Source of the DNA: Candidatus Nitrosopumilus sp.
Lineage (GTDB): Archaea; Thermoproteota; Nitrososphaeria; Nitrososphaerales; Nitrosopumilaceae
Length of the DNA: 33,357 bases
Direction of reading: 5' to 3'
NCBI GenBank assembly: GCA_020431995.1
Contig: JAGQHE010000057.1
Location: forward strand, 1 to 33,357
The translations under genes were made by a program, and so were the position numbers. The notes beneath the pieces are model-generated. The model was given only the letters and a program-made list of their open reading frames with translations, was not told the origin of the DNA and did no database searches. Shown here piece by piece: positions 1,554 through 31,459 of the stretch (the stretch's first letter is position 1; each line of letters starts with the position of its first letter).

Positions 1554-1952
1554 GTGAACAAGGACAACGCCAAATCCAATGACATGACAGATGGTCTTGA
1601 CAAATGCTGCAATCACGTCATTCTTGCATCTGATGACCAGAGACTAAAGATGTTAGGTGAGATATTTGGTAATAACACCAGCAGAAGCATCATGTCTCTT
1701 TTGATAGAAAATCAAATGACTGCAACCCAAATATCTGACAGACTAGGCATAAAGCTAAACCTTGTGATGTATCATCTAGACAAAATGATGGGCCTTGAAA
1801 TAATATCAATTACAGAAAGGACAAAAAACAGCAGGGGTCACCAAGTAAAGCATTACAGGGCAAAACAGGCAGTGATGATATTCTCAAAGAATGCAAAAAA
1901 CAGGACAGAATCAGTTTATGCTGCCATTGCTCCAACTGATAGTGTCTTGTAA
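1554..1952 (+). CDS. Winged-helix (ArsR-like) DNA-binding regulator
   Basis: A 132-residue protein starting at GTG 1554; no better in-frame start exists upstream. After an N-terminal tail with a CCNH motif (residues ~18-21), residues ~35-105 form a winged HTH: SRSIMSLLIENQMTATQISDRL, then the recognition helix region IKLNLVMYHLDKM, then a charged wing (TERTKNSRGHQVKHYRAK). The form LxxxMYHLDKM followed by a wing is typical of archaeal ArsR/MarR-like regulators. The Cys-Cys-x-His near the N-terminus might bind metal, but this is speculative. The 3' end overlaps the oppositely oriented 68-aa gene by 37 bp. Targets are unknown; it is adjacent to the cluster of genes sharing a common promoter box. 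Confidence 0.85.
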   Translation: MNKDNAKSNDMTDGLDKCCNHVILASDDQRLKMLGEIFGNNTSRSIMSLLIENQMTATQISDRLGIKLNLVMYHLDKMMGLEIISITERTKNSRGHQVKHYRAKQAVMIFSKNAKNRTESVYAAIAPTDSVL

Positions 1953-2122
1953 TGATTTGCAAGAAGGTGGTATTGCCCATAAAAGACATCACAGTCACGC
2001 ATCAGCGACTCGATCTCCTCATACAGCAGTCTTGCGCACTCTGCATCTGACATTTTGGTCTCTCTAATCCACCTTCTGGCATTCTTTGAATCAGGCATCA
2101 TCTTATGTGAATTATGGCTCAT
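1916..2122 (-). CDS. Small unknown protein, third gene of a coupled operon
   Basis: 68 residues from ATG 2122. The start overlaps the TGA of the preceding 59-aa gene in an ATGA arrangement, and a GGAGG (complement of 2133-2137) lies 10 nt upstream, so both coupling and a ribosome-binding site support this start. Residues ~24-60 look like one or two amphipathic helices (MSDAECARLLYEEIESLM, then CDVFYGQYHLLANHYKTL). No family recognised. Its last 37 bp overlap the 3' end of the winged-helix gene on the other strand. Confidence 0.55.
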   Translation of the reverse strand: MSHNSHKMMPDSKNARRWIRETKMSDAECARLLYEEIESLMRDCDVFYGQYHLLANHYKTLSVGAMAA

Positions 2123-2298: not shown

Positions 2299-2529
2299 CT
2301 AGTATTCCTCCACATCCTCAAGAAACAGCCACGATAGTCCCTCTATCTGTTTCCAGGAATTTACAGATCTCTGTGGTGTCTCCTTGTGGTATCTTGGACT
2401 CTTGGATTTTGTACGATTCGTTTGAAAGTTATCAAGTTCTAATCCTTCTTTTACTGGGTTGCTTGTAACCAGGTTTTCTGTTGGCTCGGACTGCCAATTT
2501 TTTTGTTGTAAAATTGTTTGCGTGAACAT
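2299..2529 (-). CDS. Small unknown protein (76 aa), first gene of the coupled operon
   Basis: From ATG 2529 to TAG 2301-2299. The protein is polar, rich in Gln, Asn, Thr and Lys, with an aromatic/acidic C-terminus (WLFLEDVEEY). No recognised domain. It is supported by context: its start lies 24 nt downstream of a promoter box that is nearly identical to the ones in front of the starts at 3642, 4099 and 5118, and its stop abuts the ATG of the next small gene. On sequence alone it would be weak. Confidence 0.45.
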   Translation of the reverse strand: MFTQTILQQKNWQSEPTENLVTSNPVKEGLELDNFQTNRTKSKSPRYHKETPQRSVNSWKQIEGLSWLFLEDVEEY

Positions 2530-2552
2530 GGTTATGTTATGGCAGTTTAGTT

Positions 2553-2577
2553 ATTAACAAATGTGAGACAAACATCT
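2553..2577 (-). promoter_or_regulatory. Shared promoter box, copy 1
   Basis: Plus-strand attaacaaatgtgagacaaa followed by catct. Read on the minus strand it gives a GTTAAT TATA-like element preceded by a conserved TTTGTCTC block. It begins 24 nt before ATG 2529. Matches copy 3 at 22 of 25 positions by eye. Confidence 0.6.
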
Positions 2578-2961
2578 AATTTGTTTTTAAAAATCATTCA
2601 CATTGTAATGGTTGCAAGCAATCGATCGTAACAGGATTGTACTATGGTTCAAGACATGATTCTTTACATGGAGAACAATAGACGCTGCAGAAATCAACTT
2701 TAAACAAATCCCTTCCAGTCATTAGGCAATTGTTCGCTAGAGCACATATGTTTTATGCTGTGTAATGCAGTATTGTTACGATTAAGCAGTTAGTGCTTGT
2801 TGCAGAAAATATCTCTTTGTTATTTTTGACATGCTTCTGAGTATGCAGATGTATTTCATGAATGCATCACAAATAAGCATCTTGAAATATGATGAAATTA
2901 TGTTTTTTAGGAATTCATGGTGTTAGTAGACGATTCAAAAAAAGAAAATGGGATTTGTTGC
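2578..2961. other. Non-coding stretch, nothing convincing
   Basis: About 380 bases with only very short open frames in all readings and no hairpin, repeat or RNA gene that I can support. The right end receives the 3' end of the PepSY-protein gene. Confidence 0.5.
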
Positions 2962-3642
2962 TTATTGGATGTCGTCGGTTGTATCCTCAAAACCCACAGA
3001 TTCGCGTTCGACGTTTAGGATATCTCCAGTATTGGGGTCTATCTCTACTGAAACATCTTCATCCACAATGATAAAATCAACAGAGTATGTGAAAGAGTTG
3101 TTTTCCTTGTCTGTGTCAGCATCTACAAGATTGGATAGAACAGCGCCTACATGATCCATTGCAATCTGTATTGCGTCCCCTAGCGAGTTTTTAGGATTTG
3201 CAGATATGAAATAACCCTCCACATTGTCATCTGTCTCATTGTCGTCATTGGTCTCGCCGTCTCCATCACTGACTGACTTTCCATCGTTGGATTCGTCTTC
3301 GTTTTCTGCTGTCTCAGTAGGATCCTCTTCAACTTTGACTACTTTGCCGCTTCGTGGGTCTACCTTGACGTCAAATTCGCTTCCATCTTTGTGAATCTCC
3401 ACTCCGTACAGGTAATTCCCATCCTCGCTGTCATAGTCTACTGTGACTAGCTGTGATGGCTGCGCACCAATATGGTTGACTCCTATTGTTACAGCTTCGC
3501 CTGGGGTTATCTTGGCAAAAGCCAAACTTGCAGGAGAGATTGCAGCAAAGGAATCCCCAACACCTGCTGCGCCAACCATGAGAACTGCCATGGCTGCCGC
3601 AAAGAATGCAACATGTCTTTTTTGTGCAATTTTGTGTGTCAT
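2962..3642 (-). CDS. Secreted protein with two PepSY-like domains
   Basis: 226 residues with a signal peptide (basic MTHKIAQKRH, then a hydrophobic segment to about residue 33). Two related domains follow, each starting with a helix (TPGEAVTIGVNHIGAQPSQL at ~47-66 and SLGDAIQIAMDHVGAVLSNL at ~153-172). Each then has beta strands ending in a PepSY-type hairpin (FDVKVDPRSGKVVKVE and VSVEIDPNTGDILNVE). They are joined by a ~40-residue, very acidic Asp/Glu/Asn/Ser-rich linker. PepSY domains are small extracytoplasmic modules often linked to peptidase inhibition or substrate binding. It is expressed from the shared promoter box at 3667. Confidence 0.85.
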   Translation of the reverse strand: MTHKIAQKRHVAFFAAAMAVLMVGAAGVGDSFAAISPASLAFAKITPGEAVTIGVNHIGAQPSQLVTVDYDSEDGNYLYGVEIHKDGSEFDVKVDPRSGKVVKVEEDPTETAENEDESNDGKSVSDGDGETNDDNETDDNVEGYFISANPKNSLGDAIQIAMDHVGAVLSNLVDADTDKENNSFTYSVDFIIVDEDVSVEIDPNTGDILNVERESVGFEDTTDDIQ

Positions 3643-3666
3643 GGAGCCATTTGTGTTTTTTTGCTT

Positions 3667-3685
3667 ATTACAATTGAGAGACAGA
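3667..3685 (-). promoter_or_regulatory. Shared promoter box, copy 2
   Basis: attacaattgagagacaga on the plus strand, 25 nt before ATG 3642 of the PepSY-protein gene. The ttgagagaca core is identical to that of copy 3; the TATA-like part differs by one base (attaca versus attaac). Confidence 0.55.
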
Positions 3686-3859
3686 AAGCTAAGGAAGAAT
3701 TTGAAACGGTCATGGAATATTCATGATTTGTCTTGTTTAGTTAGCTGATTGTACCACATTTGACTTAGATTTTACGATAAAATTAGAAAAAACATGACAA
3801 TGATTGTTTTTATCAATCTTGTTTTCTCGCATCTTAAAAATATACTACAATAATTTGTT

Positions 3860-4099
3860 TCATAATAAATTAATTGAAATTCCATAATCTTCAAACTCGA
3901 TAATTAATTCATTATACATGTCATTATTTTTATCATTTTTTTCTATCTTGTATTCTCTCTCTGGTTTGCTTTCTGGAATATGAACATAATCTGGCATGTC
4001 AATTTCAGCAATTGCCTTGGCGATTGTTTCAGTGGATATTGTAACTAAAACAATCAGAATAATTGTGACTGTCATAGTTTTCGTCATTTTAATTTTCAT
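3860..4099 (-). CDS. Truncated paralogue of the adjacent secreted acidic protein
   Basis: 79 residues. The N-terminus (MKIKMTKTMTVTIILIVLV) and the region around the predicted signal cleavage (ETIAKAIAE, then IPES) mirror the 286-residue protein encoded at 4258-5118 (MKAKLTKTTIIAVLVMTLA, TQAIAE, IPES). After about residue 50 the similarity stops and the protein ends with a short acidic tail (IIEFEDYGISINLL). The promoter boxes of the two genes are also near-identical. I read it as a duplicated gene that lost its C-terminal domain, still with an intact promoter; a small secreted protein remains possible. Confidence 0.6.
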   Translation of the reverse strand: MKIKMTKTMTVTIILIVLVTISTETIAKAIAEIDMPDYVHIPESKPEREYKIEKNDKNNDMYNELIIEFEDYGISINLL

Positions 4100-4122
4100 A
4101 AATCAAAAACATTCTGAAAGAT

Positions 4123-4147
4123 ATTAACAGTTGAGAGACAAACATCT
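4123..4147 (-). promoter_or_regulatory. Shared promoter box, copy 3
   Basis: attaacagttgagagacaaa followed by catct on the plus strand, 24 nt before ATG 4099. It is the best match to copy 4 (attaacagttgaga core) and to copy 1 (gagacaaacatct end). Confidence 0.6.
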
Positions 4148-4257
4148 GAGAGTTGATCTTGTATTGATAAAATGTTGTTCTTATTTTTCTTGTCTAGTTA
4201 GATGATTGCATTAGGATCAGATTAGATTGTAAATTCTCAAATAAAAAATAAAAAGTT

Positions 4258-5118
4258 TTAGGAAACAGAGACCAATTCCATGGATGTGTTCCCGCTAACT
4301 GACTTGACCAGCCCTACTCCCGGTGCGAAATAGTTTGTTCCATAATTTCCGTCATTGAAATCATAGAGTCTTACAGACAGTGCGTCACTGTACGCGCCAA
4401 ACTTTACTTTGATTGGCATGTGAAGATTTTTTACAATGCTTTTCTCATGAACTAATCCTGGCACGTCTTCTACTGTGTATGAGAATCCAACTCCAAGACC
4501 TGGATTTGAGGGCATCATGATTCCTGGCAATGGTGTATCGTCACCAACAAGCCAGCTTCCCTCATGTCCAATGGCTTGGCCATCCTCATAGTCTGTAGAG
4601 TATTCGCCAAAGAAATACACCACACCGTTGTTTCCCTGTGCGTAAAAATCAGTGGCAATCTCAATTATCTTTCCATCCTCATACTCTGTAACTATTACAG
4701 GAACTGTCAAAACATCGTCGATCTCTACCGCTTGGTCTAGTACTTGCCATTCTTCGGCAATCTCAATTATATCTCCGCCATCACTCATAGTGCCTGCAAA
4801 ACGTAGTGTCTTGCCTTCATATTTTGAAATGGGAAAGTACTGGTTGTCAATGTTCTCAGTAAAGTTACATGGATTAAAAGATGAATCCTCTTCTGTTTCA
4901 TAGGCTGACTCATCATCTGTCTCATCCGTGTCCTCCAGAGGGTTTTCGGCCTTACATTCTCTCTGTTTTTCTTTAAACTCTCCCTCACTTTCTGGAATTT
5001 CAATTCCAATTTGGGTACTGGACTCTGCTATTGCCTGAGTTACAGTGCTCACAGATGTTGCAGCTAGAGTCATAACCAAGACAGCGATTATTGTAGTTTT
5101 TGTTAGTTTTGCTTTCAT
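4258..5118 (-). CDS. Secreted acidic protein of unknown function, full-length paralogue
   Basis: 286 residues. A signal peptide (residues 1 to ~32) is followed by an acidic, low-complexity linker (~40-80) and then a compact beta-rich domain of ~200 residues (starts CNFTENIDNQYFPISKYEG, ends SGNTSMELVSVS). It contains repeated short YEDGK/EDGQ turns and a GVGLVKSVSG-like final hairpin of the kind found in secreted beta-sandwich or beta-barrel domains. It reminds me of domains in archaeal and bacterial exoproteins with a FxPGVGLV motif, but I cannot name the family. A truncated paralogue lies just downstream, and both carry the same promoter box. Confidence 0.8.
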   Translation of the reverse strand: MKAKLTKTTIIAVLVMTLAATSVSTVTQAIAESSTQIGIEIPESEGEFKEKQRECKAENPLEDTDETDDESAYETEEDSSFNPCNFTENIDNQYFPISKYEGKTLRFAGTMSDGGDIIEIAEEWQVLDQAVEIDDVLTVPVIVTEYEDGKIIEIATDFYAQGNNGVVYFFGEYSTDYEDGQAIGHEGSWLVGDDTPLPGIMMPSNPGLGVGFSYTVEDVPGLVHEKSIVKNLHMPIKVKFGAYSDALSVRLYDFNDGNYGTNYFAPGVGLVKSVSGNTSMELVSVS

Positions 5119-5142
5119 TGATGGAAAGACTGCCTGGATAAT

Positions 5143-5165
5143 ATTAACAGTTGAGATACAATTCT
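5143..5165 (-). promoter_or_regulatory. Shared promoter box, copy 4
   Basis: attaacagttgagatacaat followed by tct on the plus strand, starting 25 nt before ATG 5118. One base differs from copy 3 within the gagagaca core (gagataca). Confidence 0.6.
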
Positions 5166-5278
5166 CGTTGCATCAGTGGTTTTTTTAGAAAAATAGGCGT
5201 TGTTTTCTGAAAAGATTTGTCAATACCCAGAGAGTTGTTCTACAAACATTATATCAAAAGAACATGTGACTCGAACTA

Positions 5279-5341
5279 ATGTCGAAGCATGAGACTAGCA
5301 GGATTTTTCTAACGGATAGAAGGTTGGTGAATTGTGAATGA
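5279..5341 (+). other. Possible 20-codon leader ORF overlapping the next start
   Basis: ATG 5279 opens a 20-codon frame (MSKHETSRIF...) whose TGA (5339-5341) falls just inside the following GTG-initiated regulator gene. It could couple or attenuate translation of the regulator, or be chance. Confidence 0.2.
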
Positions 5342-5867
5342 AGAGCCCAACAGTAATACTGTCAAAGTATTACAATTCATACAAGACAATCCTGGATGCC
5401 ACATGCGATACATCAAGAGGAAGGTAGAAATGTCAATGGGCACGATTCAATACCATCTAAATTTACTTGAAAAGCAAGGAAAGATAATCTCCGAGAGCCA
5501 GAATTTTCACAAATATTATTTTCCGATAGGACTTTTTGAGCAAGATCAAAGGGAAATCTTAAAAGTTCTCAATCAAGAATCTGCACGAGAAATCATAATG
5601 ATAATCTTAGAGAAAACAGATCCTACTCAAGCAGAGATTGCCAGGCATGTGGGCATCGCACCTGCTTCAATTAACTGGCACCTGAAAAGAATCGAGGAAA
5701 CTGGATTGATTGAGAACATCCAGGAGGGAAAGTTCAAGAGGTACAAGCTAAAAATATCCTCCAAACAGGTAATATCCATTATGAAGCATTACCATCCGAA
5801 CCTGTGGAGTAAGTTGAGCAGCAGACTAGCTGAGATGTTCCTTGTAATGTCATCGGAGAACGAGTAA
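5334..5867 (+). CDS. Regulator with two winged-helix domains
   Basis: 177 residues. The GTG at 5334 is forced as start because an in-frame TGA lies two codons upstream. The first winged helix spans ~8-65 (LQFIQDNPGCHMRYIKRKV, MSMGTIQYHLNLLEKQG, then wing SESQNFHKYYFP). The second spans ~75-140 (QESAREIIMIILEKTDPTQ, IAPASINWHLKRIEETG, then wing EGKFKRYKLK). Tandem HTH proteins of this form are common archaeal transcription regulators. It heads a compact operon with a membrane protein (4 nt gap) and an MFS transporter (no gap), so control of transporter expression is the simplest guess. It also lies next to the genes with the shared promoter box. Confidence 0.85.
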   Translation: MNEEPNSNTVKVLQFIQDNPGCHMRYIKRKVEMSMGTIQYHLNLLEKQGKIISESQNFHKYYFPIGLFEQDQREILKVLNQESAREIIMIILEKTDPTQAEIARHVGIAPASINWHLKRIEETGLIENIQEGKFKRYKLKISSKQVISIMKHYHPNLWSKLSSRLAEMFLVMSSENE

Positions 5868-5871
5868 TAGC

Positions 5872-6171
5872 ATGTTGTCGGAAATATTTCTGCAAATGGA
5901 GTCATTGGGTATTTCAGATGTCGTAGAGTTTGCAATCATTGGATTTTCATTGGGGTTGTTTGGGTTGTCGCTTTCTGCATATCGCAATACAGGCATGAAA
6001 AGAATTTTGTTTGCGGCAGGGGCATTTGCTTTGTTTGCAATTCAGTTATTTTTTGACTATTTTGAAGAATTTTTCAATTTGTTGGACGAAGATACTGCCG
6101 ATATTGTGCTCTCGTTGGTAACTTTGGGCATATTGATACTGTTCTTCATGGCAATAGTAAAAAGAAAGTAG
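5872..6171 (+). CDS. Small three-helix membrane protein
   Basis: 99 residues with three predicted transmembrane helices (around 16-36, 44-62 and 78-95), separated by a basic loop (YRNTGMKR) and an acidic loop (FEEFFNLLDEDTAD). It ends in KRK, giving a positive cytoplasmic tail. It starts four bases after the two-wing regulator stops, and its stop codon abuts the ATG of the MFS gene. No named family recognised; probably a regulator-linked membrane partner or sensor. Confidence 0.75.
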   Translation: MLSEIFLQMESLGISDVVEFAIIGFSLGLFGLSLSAYRNTGMKRILFAAGAFALFAIQLFFDYFEEFFNLLDEDTADIVLSLVTLGILILFFMAIVKRK

Positions 6172-7941: not shown

Positions 7942-9174
7942 CTATTGTGCAGGCTGTGTATACTGTGTAGGATAGATAGAGTGTTGTTGTCTTAGTATCT
8001 CATTCATCATTCTTCTCATATATTCCCTGACGCTTTCTTCTCTTAGCAGGGCTTCTTTTAGATCAAGTGGTTTTCCATATCTGTTACACATCTTCATTTC
8101 TGGTGAATTACGTCCTGTACAGATAGGGCATATCTTTGGTTGTTGTATTATCTCTTCTTGGTTATTCTTCTTCAATCCATAGATTCCCAAGATTTTGTCC
8201 TCTACGTCAGAATCTACCATGTGGACATATCTGGCTGGCATCTTGCTTGATGCTGTCCATCCCTGTCTTTTCTTCAGTTCTGGTTCTGTCAGGATTGTTG
8301 CCATTCTTGTGGCCTCTGAGTGTCTAAAGAGATTCATAAACACTCTCTTCTGTAATGTTGAACTTGCACCTATTCTTCGGATATAGTTTCTTGCCGAAAA
8401 ATATGTCAAGGCATTTCCAAACTGTTTCTTGTTTCTCATTATCCATAATGGTGCATCATAGTTTTCTTTCAGAGGATGCGCATTTATCCAAGCAACCAAG
8501 TCAGGAACACTTTCAATTAATCTGACAGGTCTGGCATTTGTTTTGCCATCCACTAAGATTACTGCACCATATTCATCTGCCTTGACGTGTTTTATTTTGA
8601 GATTCAGTAGTTCTCCAGGTCTTGTTCCTGCCTCATATTGAACATGGATCATGGCCTTTAGCATTGCGTCTCCTGCACAAGCATCTAGTAGCTGGCCTAG
8701 GTCTTCTTTTGTAAGCAGATCTTCTCGTGATAGTCTATCTTTTACCGTCTTCATTCGGATTCCCCTAATTTCCTTGGGATCGCCATCCTCACTCATGCTT
8801 CGGCTGCCTGTCATAACCCACCTAAGGAAAATCTTGATGTGTTTTTTGTTGTCATAACTGGAATATGTTTCCTGTCCTTTGTTGTCGGCGAATCTCTGCA
8901 TAATTTGATACATTAGAGAATCAACGTCTTCTCGGTTCATAGTATCATAGTCTTTTCCGACTACGTTTCCAAGTGTTAGTATAGTTCTCAATGCTTTTCG
9001 TCTGGTTGCTTTTGCCAGACTGTTTGTTACCATTACCTGATCGTATTTGCAAAAAAGTTCATAGTTTCTTTTTGAGAAATGTGCCTCTGCCTGTTTGTAT
9101 GTTGCCCTGATCTCTGAATCAAAGTTGTAAATCTCCAAAGTGTTCTCTTTTCTTGTTGTTTTTAGTGATTCCAT
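7942..9174 (-). CDS. Tyrosine recombinase/integrase with C-terminal zinc ribbon
   Basis: 410 residues. An N-terminal core-binding (SAM-like) domain spans ~20-125 and a catalytic domain ~150-330. Visible catalytic residues are Arg185 (EAGTRPGELLNL), Lys211 (VDGKT), Arg284-His285 (NLFRHSEAT), Trp306 (GW) and the nucleophile Tyr316 (ARYVH). The usual first His of the HxxR box is Asn281. A C-terminal ribbon follows with CPIC (349-352) and a second knuckle C363-N-R-Y366, in which Tyr replaces the last Cys, so zinc binding may be lost. It is transcribed in the same direction as tRNA-Phe, starting 43 nt past its 3' end, the classic position for an element inserted at that tRNA. No second attachment site was seen. 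Confidence 0.92.
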   Translation of the reverse strand: MESLKTTRKENTLEIYNFDSEIRATYKQAEAHFSKRNYELFCKYDQVMVTNSLAKATRRKALRTILTLGNVVGKDYDTMNREDVDSLMYQIMQRFADNKGQETYSSYDNKKHIKIFLRWVMTGSRSMSEDGDPKEIRGIRMKTVKDRLSREDLLTKEDLGQLLDACAGDAMLKAMIHVQYEAGTRPGELLNLKIKHVKADEYGAVILVDGKTNARPVRLIESVPDLVAWINAHPLKENYDAPLWIMRNKKQFGNALTYFSARNYIRRIGASSTLQKRVFMNLFRHSEATRMATILTEPELKKRQGWTASSKMPARYVHMVDSDVEDKILGIYGLKKNNQEEIIQQPKICPICTGRNSPEMKMCNRYGKPLDLKEALLREESVREYMRRMMNEILRQQHSIYPTQYTQPAQ

Positions 9175-9216
9175 GAAGATTTAACGTCAAGTTAGGTATT
9201 TAGTCAAAAAGGTCAA

Positions 9217-9290
9217 TGCCAGGGGCGAGATTTGAACGCGCGACAGCCCGGTCTTCAGCCGAGTGCTCTCCCAGGCTGAGCTACCCTGGC
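9217..9290 (-). tRNA. tRNA-Phe (anticodon GAA)
   Basis: A full cloverleaf reads on the minus strand. The acceptor stem pairs gccaggg (9290-9284) with ccctggc (9224-9218), with discriminator A at 9217. The anticodon stem ctcgg/ccggg carries loop CTGAAGA, giving anticodon GAA (9256-9254), and the T-arm contains gttcaaatc. CCA is not encoded and no intron is seen. A TATA-like tttaatt around 9317-9323 lies ~26 nt upstream. The integrase gene begins just beyond the 3' end. Confidence 0.95.
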
Positions 9291-9434
9291 ACTTAGAAAA
9301 ATGCATTCTGTTGAGGAATTAAAGTTTGTCTCTTTGACTCGATCTATGACAAACTCTTTACGTGATTCCAACTGATGCCCAATAAGATTGGTCCCTCTTT
9401 GATGTGCCTGCCTTTGCAGTCCAGACTTGCAAAA

Positions 9435-28857: not shown

Positions 28858-29703
28858 CTATACTTGCAGGAACGAGCCAGATTTTTTGGTTACTGCAATG
28901 ATGCTAACTATGGATAATGCAAGCATCATCAAGACAAGAGATCCGAATTCCGGAACGACCTTCTTCGTAGTTATCTCTCCAAAAGATTCCACATACTGGT
29001 CATCGTGTCCAAAGCCTACTGCATTCACAGAAATGTTGACAGGAGTGTCATCAGATGCAGCGACTGTCAAGGCTTTTGTCTTGTGAGTTGCGGTTGTGAC
29101 CCCATTATGCATGTGACCTTCTTCGTTTAACAGGACTATGGTTCCTTGCATTGCCTGAATATTGTATGTTAGATGCTGTGGCGGATTTCCTTGCAAGTCG
29201 GTGATCTTGACGTCAATGGTCATTTCTTCGCCCTGTTTGCCACTGGTGGAAGTGATCTCGGCCATGAGGTCATTGGTAGAGCTGTTTGCAGCTGTGTTCC
29301 CTATTGTGATTGCGCCCAGATTAGCCTCAGGCATTCCTCCGACAGTTACAAGCACACTTCCTTTCATCCATGGGTGGACCATGCAAAAGTAATTGTACTC
29401 GCCTAATGTGTCAAACTTTGCGGAAAATGAAGTTCCAGCCATGAATATGCCGCTATCAAAACCATCATCAGTGTTTTCACTAGTTACTGTGTGTGCTGCG
29501 GAATCATCATTGCTCCACACGACTGTGTCACCAGGATGAACCGTGACTTTGCTTGGAATGTAACATTCGTTTGTTTCATCACATCCAGGAGCAGATGTTC
29601 CGGTAGGGATGCTGATGTTAATCTCTTCAGCAAAGACATATGGAGTAGCAGATAGTGTCAGCGCACTAAGAAGTATTGAAGTCATTATTTGGTATTTGTT
29701 CAT
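28858..29703 (-). CDS. Secreted cupredoxin with PEFG-type C-terminal sorting signal
   Basis: 281 residues from ATG 29703; an upstream ATG at 29724 would add seven residues before the signal peptide. A signal peptide (~1-25) leads to a type 1 copper domain with ligands His71 (AAHTVTSE), Cys107, His110 and Met113 (YFCMVHPWM). A second beta domain (~150-245) follows, then VPEFG and a hydrophobic helix with a Lys-Lys-Ser end, the archaeal PEFG-CTERM form recognised by an archaeosortase. It is probably an electron carrier or copper-binding surface protein, as plentiful in ammonia-oxidising archaea. An 8-bp inverted repeat lies in its promoter. Confidence 0.92.
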   Translation of the reverse strand: MNKYQIMTSILLSALTLSATPYVFAEEINISIPTGTSAPGCDETNECYIPSKVTVHPGDTVVWSNDDSAAHTVTSENTDDGFDSGIFMAGTSFSAKFDTLGEYNYFCMVHPWMKGSVLVTVGGMPEANLGAITIGNTAANSSTNDLMAEITSTSGKQGEEMTIDVKITDLQGNPPQHLTYNIQAMQGTIVLLNEEGHMHNGVTTATHKTKALTVAASDDTPVNISVNAVGFGHDDQYVESFGEITTKKVVPEFGSLVLMMLALSIVSIIAVTKKSGSFLQV

Positions 29704-29714
29704 TACGAAGTTGT

Positions 29715-29752
29715 CTGTGTACAAGGTAAAAAAAGGTTAGTAACGTACACAG
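29715..29752. promoter_or_regulatory. Inverted repeat in the cupredoxin promoter
   Basis: ctgtgtac (29715-29722) and gtacacag (29745-29752), perfect 8-bp arms whose centres are 30 bp apart, about three helical turns. The T-rich core promoter of the cupredoxin gene lies between them. Looks like a dimer operator, possibly metal-responsive. Confidence 0.45.
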
Positions 29753-30008
29753 CAGTTTCACGAAAGAAAGGAAGTTGGCATTCAATCAGAAAATCAATTA
29801 GTTTCCTTTGAGATTAAGTCAGGTGTAACATGTGTCATAATTGGCAAGATGCATGCTTTTATCATTGAGTGACTTTTCAGAAAAGGTTTTTCTCTTCCAA
29901 CATGCCTGACAACATTTTGACAAAAAAAATCTGTGTGTCCTTCCAAGTTCAGGCAAACCATGTTTGGTGGTGAGAAAAAGATATTATCTTCAAAGGAGGA
30001 ATAAGATC

Positions 30009-30515
30009 ATGGCATCATTCACAGTAAACACTCACAGAACAGACCCTTACAAGAATTTCAAGTTCAGAGTAAAATGGAATGGCAGGTATGTCGCAGGAGT
30101 CTCAAGGGTATCCCCATTAAAAAGAAGCACCGAGGTCATAGAGTACAGAGACGGTGCAAACTCTAGCAGCATAAAAAAAATGCCAGGATTTACAAAGTAT
30201 GGCCCAATCACACTGGAACGTGGAATTACCCATGATACCGAATTTGAGAACTGGGCAAATCAGGTATTCAACATTAGCGGAAGCATGGGTTCTGAGATGT
30301 CCTTGAAGAATTTTCGCAGGGACATAATCATTGAGATGTTTAACGAGGCTGGGATGCTGGTAATCTCATACATGATCAGAAGGTGCTGGGTTTCAGAATA
30401 CACCGCATTGCCAGAACTTGATGCTAATTCTTTCTCTGTTGCAATAGAGAGCATCACTCTAGAAAACGAGGGATGGGAAAGGGACCTGTCAGTAAAAGAA
30501 CCTGCCGAGCAGTAA
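30009..30515 (+). CDS. Contractile-tail tube protein, divergent (T4 gp19/Afp1/Pvc1-like)
   Basis: 168 residues from ATG 30009, chosen because AAAGGAGG (29992-29999) lies nine bases upstream; the longer frame from 29964 would put that site inside the gene. The tube fold signature is clear: DPYKNFKFRVKWNGRYVAGV (~11-30), TEVIEYRDGAN (~41-51), MPGFTKYGPITLERGITHDT (~59-78), the variable loop, and a C-terminal NSFSVAIESITLENEGWERD. This is the inner-tube family of contractile phage tails and extracellular contractile injection systems. The canonical NAWPxKWxGP segment is changed (RRCWVSEYTALPELD). Second gene of the pair is convergent; no sheath gene follows. Confidence 0.85.
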   Translation: MASFTVNTHRTDPYKNFKFRVKWNGRYVAGVSRVSPLKRSTEVIEYRDGANSSSIKKMPGFTKYGPITLERGITHDTEFENWANQVFNISGSMGSEMSLKNFRRDIIIEMFNEAGMLVISYMIRRCWVSEYTALPELDANSFSVAIESITLENEGWERDLSVKEPAEQ

Positions 30516-31024: not shown

Positions 31025-31459
31025 TCATACTGTTTCCACGTCAACGTCCTCAGTTGCAATTTCCAATGTCTCTATTGCAACCTCGTTGCCCTTTGCACTT
31101 AATGTCGGGCCGCTGTATTTTACAGGCCAGCAGTTCCTTAGTTTCCATATCACAAAAGGCTCGTGCTCCTCATTCAGAATGCTGACTGTGATATCTTTTC
31201 TTTCAGGAATGCCTTGCTTGGCCTGCTTGAACCAACCATGCAGTTCAGGCGACTTTATCAGACCACGTTTCAGGATCAGATTTGAGTATTTGACAAGTCC
31301 GGGGATTTTCCTTGTACTGGAGTAAACGTCAGAGCCGTTCCTGTACTCTAACACTTCGATTTCAGATTCTGGAAGAATTACCTCTTGAAACGCAGTAATT
31401 TCGCCTCCAAGACTTACCGTGAACTGAAAATTTCTTATTAGATCATCAGATCCTGCCAT
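31025..31459 (-). CDS. Contractile-tail tube protein, canonical form (T4 gp19/Afp1/Pvc1-like)
   Basis: 144 residues, close to the ~150 of Afp1/Pvc1 tubes. Motifs run IRNFQFTVSLGGEITAFQEV (~8-27), IEVLEYRNGSDVYSSTRKIP (~33-52), VKYSNLILKRGLIKSPELHG (~56-75), ITVSILNEEHEPFVIWKLRN, then WPVKYSGPTLSAKGNEVAIE and TLEIATED. The last two segments are the family hallmark. The minus-strand TATA-like atttatttaata lies about 25 nt before ATG 31459, consistent with a leaderless transcript. It is convergent with the other tube gene and its companion, 15 nt from the latter's stop. Confidence 0.92.
   Translation of the reverse strand: MAGSDDLIRNFQFTVSLGGEITAFQEVILPESEIEVLEYRNGSDVYSSTRKIPGLVKYSNLILKRGLIKSPELHGWFKQAKQGIPERKDITVSILNEEHEPFVIWKLRNCWPVKYSGPTLSAKGNEVAIETLEIATEDVDVETV

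Follow-up and report, generated by a model that had tools for sequence, protein, structure and literature searches.

Four leftward genes at 2299-5118 of a 33,357-nt stretch of Candidatus Nitrosopumilus sp. (contig JAGQHE010000057.1; hereafter, the window) are each preceded by a nearly identical sequence box, and the set is flanked by two genes encoding winged-helix proteins, at 1554 and 5334. This arrangement raises the question of whether the boxes are the operators of a regulon and, if so, which protein reads them and to what effect. The genome to which the window belongs (as contig C94) is thaumarchaeal, measures 1.73 Mb, and has relatives in Nitrosopumilus and Nitrosarchaeum. Judged from sequence comparison, the boxes very probably belong to a small, ancient gene-control circuit that is found class-wide in ammonia-oxidizing archaea. 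We consider it probable that each box is a copy of an operator for the protein encoded at 5334, combined in each case with the core promoter of a leaderless transcript, and that this protein would activate transcription by recruiting transcription factor B (TFB) and TATA-binding protein (TBP).

The four boxes and their rarity in the genome

All four boxes that an earlier sequence-only reading had placed before the leftward genes were present there, on the minus strand. In the sense of the genes, they share the consensus TTAG-N5-T-GTMTCWCA-AYTGT-TAATA. They are listed here with the distance from the G of GTMTC to the A of the ATG:

2551..2579 (18-nt box 2552-2569), minus strand: Box 1, TTAGATGTTTGTCTCACATTTGTTAATAA, putative operator plus TATA-like element before the small-protein operon; 40 nt
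3664..3692 (18-nt box 3665-3682), minus strand: Box 2, TTAGCTTTCTGTCTCTCAATTGTAATAAG, before the PepSY gene; 40 nt
4121..4149 (18-nt box 4122-4139), minus strand: Box 3, TCAGATGTTTGTCTCTCAACTGTTAATAT, before the gene for a 79-aa secreted-type protein; 40 nt
5141..5169 (18-nt box 5142-5159), minus strand: Box 4, AACGAGAATTGTATCTCAACTGTTAATAT, divergent from the regulator gene at 5334; 41 nt

The spacing is thus as constant as had been claimed. The boxes do not, however, begin 24-25 nt before the ATG, as that reading had it; instead, their AT-rich end (TTAATA or TAATAA) is centered there, 25-26 nt before the ATG in all four cases. This is where the TATA element of a leaderless gene is found, with its center approximately 25-27 nt before the coding start, and from this geometry the mRNAs behind the four boxes are probably leaderless and start at the ATG. 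The base composition upstream of 77 long open reading frames (ORFs) of the genome showed no sharp TATA peak, probably because starts assigned to the first ATG are often wrong, and leaderless use is unconfirmed at the genome-wide level; no usable thaumarchaeal start-site map was found in the literature searched. The boxes had also been said to be conserved beyond a TATA element, into the block upstream of it. This was borne out, and the block reaches further upstream than had been noticed: in boxes 1 and 2, GTCTC is preceded at 10 nt by TTAG; box 3 has TCAG instead, and in box 4 the motif is degenerate.

Genome-wide statements were derived from pattern searches of the 1.73-Mb genome. With at most 1 mismatch, GTMTCWCAWYTGTWAWWA had four matches, all of them in this cluster, while its reversed control had none. 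A stricter pattern, searched with up to 3 mismatches, gave 57 matches against 49 in the control; its three exact matches (all those with 0 mismatches) and box 2 lie in the cluster, and the single outside match with two mismatches (contig C88) precedes no ORF of at least 40 aa at the right distance. When only the upstream half of the box, TTAGNNNNNTGTMTCWCA, was searched, the genome gave two exact matches, which are boxes 1 and 2. A further seven matches had one mismatch: box 3, and six that precede no ORF of at least 40 aa at the right distance; the same was found for stray single matches on contigs C88, C5, C7, C57, C100, and C116. A weaker test, in which only the window was shuffled and 3 mismatches were allowed, gave 4 observed matches against 0.92 expected, with 2 of 100 shuffles reaching 4. 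The element is therefore common to several promoters and rare elsewhere in the genome, as expected of a regulon operator, and the random genome-wide occurrence that would have spoken against a regulon is excluded by the confinement of the near-exact matches to the cluster.

One further sequence in the window, at 3741-3758 on the plus strand, is intergenic and lies on the strand opposite to the boxes. This sequence, TTAGCTGATTGTACCACA, differs from the upstream half of the box by one mismatch and is followed at 25 nt by an ATG with only 19 codons; it is possibly a decayed fifth site.

Linkage of the box to a winged-helix regulator

The 286-aa gene behind box 4 (4258-5118) is nearly an orphan among 150 relatives, and footprinting of the box through this gene alone failed. 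The regulator gene at 5334 was therefore taken as the anchor for finding loci, and 21 regulator loci were collected from named genomes among relatives of Nitrosopumilus, Nitrosarchaeum, Nitrosotenuis, Nitrososphaera, and Nitrosocosmicus. A weight matrix trained on the four window sites only was then run on the regulator loci elsewhere, where a site was counted as divergent and correctly spaced if it lay upstream of the regulator gene on the opposite strand, with an ATG 21-25 nt beyond it. Such a divergent site was present in 13 of 17 loci (relatives of Nitrosopumilus, Nitrosarchaeum, Nitrososphaera, and Nitrosocosmicus), against a mean of 0.04 loci, and a maximum of 1 in any run, in 100 runs of dinucleotide shuffling. 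Eleven of these 13 sites lie 154-187 bp from the regulator start and the other two at 340-364 bp; box 4 shares this divergent position, its G being 175 bp from the start of 5334. Correctly spaced matrix matches numbered 27 in the 89 kb within 3.2 kb of a regulator gene; the 76 kb farther away held 1, and control loci totaling 265 kb held 4. The site and the regulator gene thus co-occur across species; orthologs of 5334 stand beside boxes in loci L111-L120, L122-L124, and L126, and in part in L130 and L131.

The same association was seen within the genus. Close orthologs of 5334 are present in only two other of the approximately 90 genomes searched (91% and 58% identical). These same two genomes are the only ones with relatives of the PepSY gene, and in both of them the box lies 22-24 nt (box end to ATG) before the PepSY relatives and neighboring genes. 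In genomes without a close ortholog, none of 29 matches with at most 1 mismatch precedes an ORF of at least 40 aa at 21-25 nt. The 30th match scanned, which lies in an ortholog-bearing genome (locus L067, genome G044), precedes a 19-codon leader ORF at 23 nt. Relatives have kept the box together with the genes, so that its loss from genomes that retain them is excluded. The proposal of a regulon with an activator-type site or a TFB-recognition element (BRE) upstream of the TATA element is strongly supported by these comparisons, as neither this loss nor random occurrence, the two outcomes named against it, was observed. The conserved upstream block is no general feature of promoters but tracks the 5334 gene and its approximately 100-aa membrane partner:

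5334..5867, plus strand: tandem winged-helix regulator, 177 aa, HVO_0163_N type with an HTH_24/ArsR-like second domain; proposed box binder
5872..6171, plus strand: predicted membrane protein, approximately 99 aa, directly downstream of the regulator in nearly all full-length regulator loci

The regulator carries a PF24266 domain (HVO_0163_N, E 4e-15, 56 bits against a cut-off of 31), followed by an HTH_24 domain (E 5.7e-17, 61.5 bits), and so combines the PF24266 N-terminal domain and the second winged helix of an HVO_0163-like protein. The AlphaFold2 model (mean predicted local distance difference test score of 91) contains two predicted winged-helix units and C-terminal helices. Foldseek gave no full-length match; what it returned were single domains resembling ArsR/SmtB and tandem winged-helix proteins, ScpB among them. 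The score against HTH_metalloreg, by which ArsR/SmtB metal sensors are recognized, was 47.5 bits and below the cut-off of 55, and the protein was therefore not filed as a metal sensor. Some members of the membrane partner family have weak DUF7521/DUF5985 matches (DUF7521 in 2 of 12), and this protein is a possible signal-receiving partner of the regulator. In haloarchaea, too, HVO_0163-type proteins are paired with a small membrane neighbor. The window pair resembles these tandem winged-helix proteins both in the N-terminal domain and in the small DUF7521-like neighbor; no operator or target of the family was described in the literature searched.

Of the two winged-helix regulators that the earlier reading had noted on either side of the set, 5334 tracks the box and 1554 does not. 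From these comparisons we hold with good confidence that 5334 encodes the regulator of the box set. The protein encoded at 1554 was rejected as the box binder: it has no match at E<=1e-12 in the box-bearing genome G045, its matches in other relatives are partial and at most 49% identical, and among the box loci it has a single relative, a 31% match in L114.

Two loci show particular arrangements. In L069 (9976-10090), a box precedes a 19-codon leader ORF whose stop codon overlaps the ATG of a secreted protein (ATGA), which suggests translational coupling of the two. In L077 (7455-7945, genome G140), a regulator ortholog, split by a frameshift, lies beside a relative of the 286-aa protein.

Site anatomy and proposed mode of control

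Site anatomy was computed over 29 sites. Four positions (G0, T1, C4, and T12) are invariant among these, T-1 and T3 are almost invariant, and TTAG at -10 to -7 is strongly conserved. The flanks, like most of the spacer between site and ATG, are near background level; the most conserved part therefore falls outside the six-base BRE. Counted from the ATG, the recognition part, TTAG-N5-TGTMTCWCA, spans about -50 to -33 and the TATA-like element about -28 to -22, with 22-24 nt from the box end to the ATG in most relatives. The conserved part thus lies directly upstream of the BRE, where a TFB-recruiting activator has its site. The hexamer before the TATA-like element is CAACTG, CATTTG, or CAATTG, which is not purine-rich and may represent a weak BRE. 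By lineage, the variants are mostly GTCTCTCA, GTCTCACA, or GTATCTCA (Nitrosopumilaceae), GTATCACA (Nitrososphaera), and GTATCAAATTTCTT (Nitrososphaerales and Nitrosocosmicus). A dyad-symmetric operator was not supported: complementarity was 0.41 against the 0.40 expected from the columns, with TAGA/TCT-like outer bases partly mirrored. An asymmetric operator read by a two-domain protein is therefore plausible.

In the mechanism that we favor, the regulator would bind immediately upstream of the BRE position and extend partly into it, with the TATA-like element next to it. Once bound, it would help TFB and TBP onto a promoter without a purine-rich BRE, and this recruitment would turn on a small group of genes whose products are mainly secreted. 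The membrane protein is a candidate relay of an envelope or ion signal to the regulator.

Systems of this kind, in which a bacterial-type one-component regulator acts on an archaeal core promoter, are already known, while the literature searched yielded no description of this regulator with its operator and targets. TFB-RF1 (PF1088) of Pyrococcus furiosus activates by TFB recruitment from a site that immediately precedes a weak BRE and a TATA element; like the 5334 protein, it is a small regulator that is phylogenetically conserved with its operator, and it controls its own neighborhood and one other operon (PMC5937170). Its site is palindromic (TCTG-N5-CAGA), however, whereas the window box has no dyad symmetry above column expectation. 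TFB recruitment has been demonstrated for TFB-RF1 and is proposed for 5334, and the likeness drawn here is one of site position. EarA of Methanococcus and Thermococcales is a winged-helix activator with a motif at a fixed distance of approximately 9 nt upstream of a weak BRE, and probably acts by TFB recruitment (PMC10665913). It shares with 5334 the winged-helix fold and, if 5334 binds the box, a site at a fixed distance upstream of the BRE, but its targets are archaellum genes and its motif is TACATA. CsmR (HVO_1209) of Haloferax volcanii, with homologs reported in Nitrosopumilaceae, is likewise a winged-helix protein with a TATA-adjacent site, but it is a 13-kDa repressor of motility genes with the motif TATCA-N4-TGATA (PMC13286277).

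Activation is favored by the position of the site, directly upstream of the BRE as in TFB-RF1 and EarA, together with the hexamers that are not purine-rich, and our confidence in this direction of control is moderate. Provided that the regulator binds the box, activation would be likely and repression a lesser prospect. Repression through the same operator and regulator would place the protein beside or over the BRE, where it would block TFB and TBP until a signal, perhaps via the membrane partner, released it. Several observations weigh on that side, or otherwise against activation by 5334. Many regulators of this fold repress, and the fold of 5334 is similar to that of ArsR/MarR proteins. 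The conserved core reaches into the BRE/TATA region, and CsmR represses from its TATA-adjacent site (PMC13286277). A divergent site is missing from four regulator loci (L111, L112, L125, and L127), though the first two have boxes nearby, and another protein encoded nearby could be the box binder. Strong boxes at 5807 (minus strand) in L111 and at 9049 (minus strand) in L117 have no evident ORF at the usual distance; these may belong to small RNAs or very short ORFs, or to genes that have decayed. Most of the site nevertheless lies upstream of the BRE and not over the TATA element or the start, resembling the sites of TFB-RF1 and EarA, and the hexamers, as in activator-dependent promoters, are not purine-rich. 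On balance, we regard repression as less likely than activation, though as the main rival to it.

The remaining explanations dispense with a dedicated regulator or with a protein operator altogether. Multiple TFBs are usual in Thaumarchaeota, and a box that abuts its TATA-like element at a fixed distance might be an extended BRE for one of several TFB paralogs, with a separate regulator unneeded. A TFB-specific BRE would be expected at many promoters, whereas only four boxes occur in the genome, their presence tracks a winged-helix gene, and conservation is highest outside the six-base BRE, which makes this explanation improbable. Recent duplication of promoter and gene together, a caveat that the sequence-only reading had raised for boxes 3 and 4, could account for part of the likeness: these two boxes precede paralogs and may share an origin, and the two identical box-gene copies in L114 may also stem from duplication. 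It does not explain boxes 1 and 2, which precede unrelated genes, or the sites kept across genera before different gene families. Moreover, boxes 3 and 4 are identical at 17 of 18 positions, compared with 11 of 22 in the spacer and 53 of 93 at the coding start, which indicates continued selection. As the only source of the likeness, duplication is largely refuted and very improbable. That the box acts at the RNA level or through DNA structure is the least probable reading of all. Nothing but its nearness to the start codon speaks for this, while the box lies upstream of the predicted transcription start and Rfam finds only the tRNA in the window.

Box-driven genes, paralogous modules, and other features

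The genes behind the four boxes are as follows:

2299..2529, minus strand: first gene of the small-protein operon, 76 aa, behind box 1; box-driven relatives in L111 and L114
2119..2298, minus strand: ORF 2 of the small-protein operon, 59 aa, no Pfam match
1916..2122, minus strand: ORF 3 of the small-protein operon, 68 aa, 66% identical relative in L114
2962..3642, minus strand: secreted protein with two PepSY domains (PF03413, E 2.9e-15) and an acidic DGKSVSDGDGETNDD stretch, 226 aa, behind box 2
3860..4099, minus strand: 79-aa secreted-type protein behind box 3, N-terminal paralog of 4258-5118 (36% identity over residues 1-53)
4258..5118, minus strand: 286-aa secreted-type protein behind box 4; family members in L113, L119, L123, L124, and L131

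Across the loci, the box-driven classes comprise secreted PepSY proteins, short acidic secreted proteins, a secreted-type family of 244-410 aa that includes the protein encoded at 4258-5118, and the small-protein gene. Measured from box end to ATG, the box lies 22-24 nt upstream of the PepSY genes in L111, L112, L113, L114, and L115, and 22 nt upstream of the small-protein homologs in L111 (104 aa) and L114 (74 aa). Box-driven relatives of the 286-aa protein occupy the same divergent position in L119 and L131, and the L113 member of its family ends in a PepSY domain. The short acidic secreted proteins (DGKSVSDGDGE) carry a DGKSVSDGDGETDD stretch that is also common to the PepSY proteins. In seven loci, a DUF347 membrane protein is encoded near the regulator, and in two of these its gene is preceded by a variant box, GTACTACAA. 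As a guess from the domain names, this gene content suggests a cell-envelope or ion-related response.

A second pair of winged-helix and membrane proteins is encoded in the same genome, on contig C74, and is approximately 36% identical to the 5334 pair. Relatives of the C74 pair retain a related core upstream, in one or two copies that read TTGTATCACA or TTGTATCATA; the core common to the 5334 and C74 modules is TGTATCACA. Paralogous modules with conserved upstream CTTGTATCACA elements were seen in L140 (contig C74 itself, near 3000-3355) and in L128, L139, and L141. The C74-type modules are a probable sister regulatory circuit in many Nitrosopumilus genomes. More tentatively, the two circuits may be instances of a membrane-coupled one-component module with paralogous copies across Nitrososphaeria, each with a TGTMTCWCA variant upstream of the BRE and each controlling secreted PepSY or acidic envelope proteins, which would constitute an undescribed archaeal envelope-sensing system.

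Genetics is hard in these archaea, and no regulator-operator pair was reported for ammonia-oxidizing archaea of this group in the literature searched. The proposed regulator, exact operator, promoter geometry, and target set described here are conserved class-wide and short enough for direct in vitro tests. The pair would make transcription activation in ammonia-oxidizing archaea testable at once, and would give a first clue to cell-envelope sensing in these organisms.

Elsewhere in the window, a tyrosine-recombinase-type integrase gene (7942-9174) starts approximately 40 bp beyond the 3' end of an intact tRNA-Phe (9216-9291), as in integrated elements; the assembly contains no second copy of the tRNA-Phe 3' end, and an island border is therefore not proven. 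A secreted cupredoxin (plastocyanin-like) protein is encoded at 28858-29724 on the minus strand. Finally, two T4 gp19-like tail-tube proteins are encoded on facing strands, at 29964-30515 (plus strand) and 31025-31459 (minus strand), which suggests that this archaeon carries a contractile tail-like or injection-system locus.

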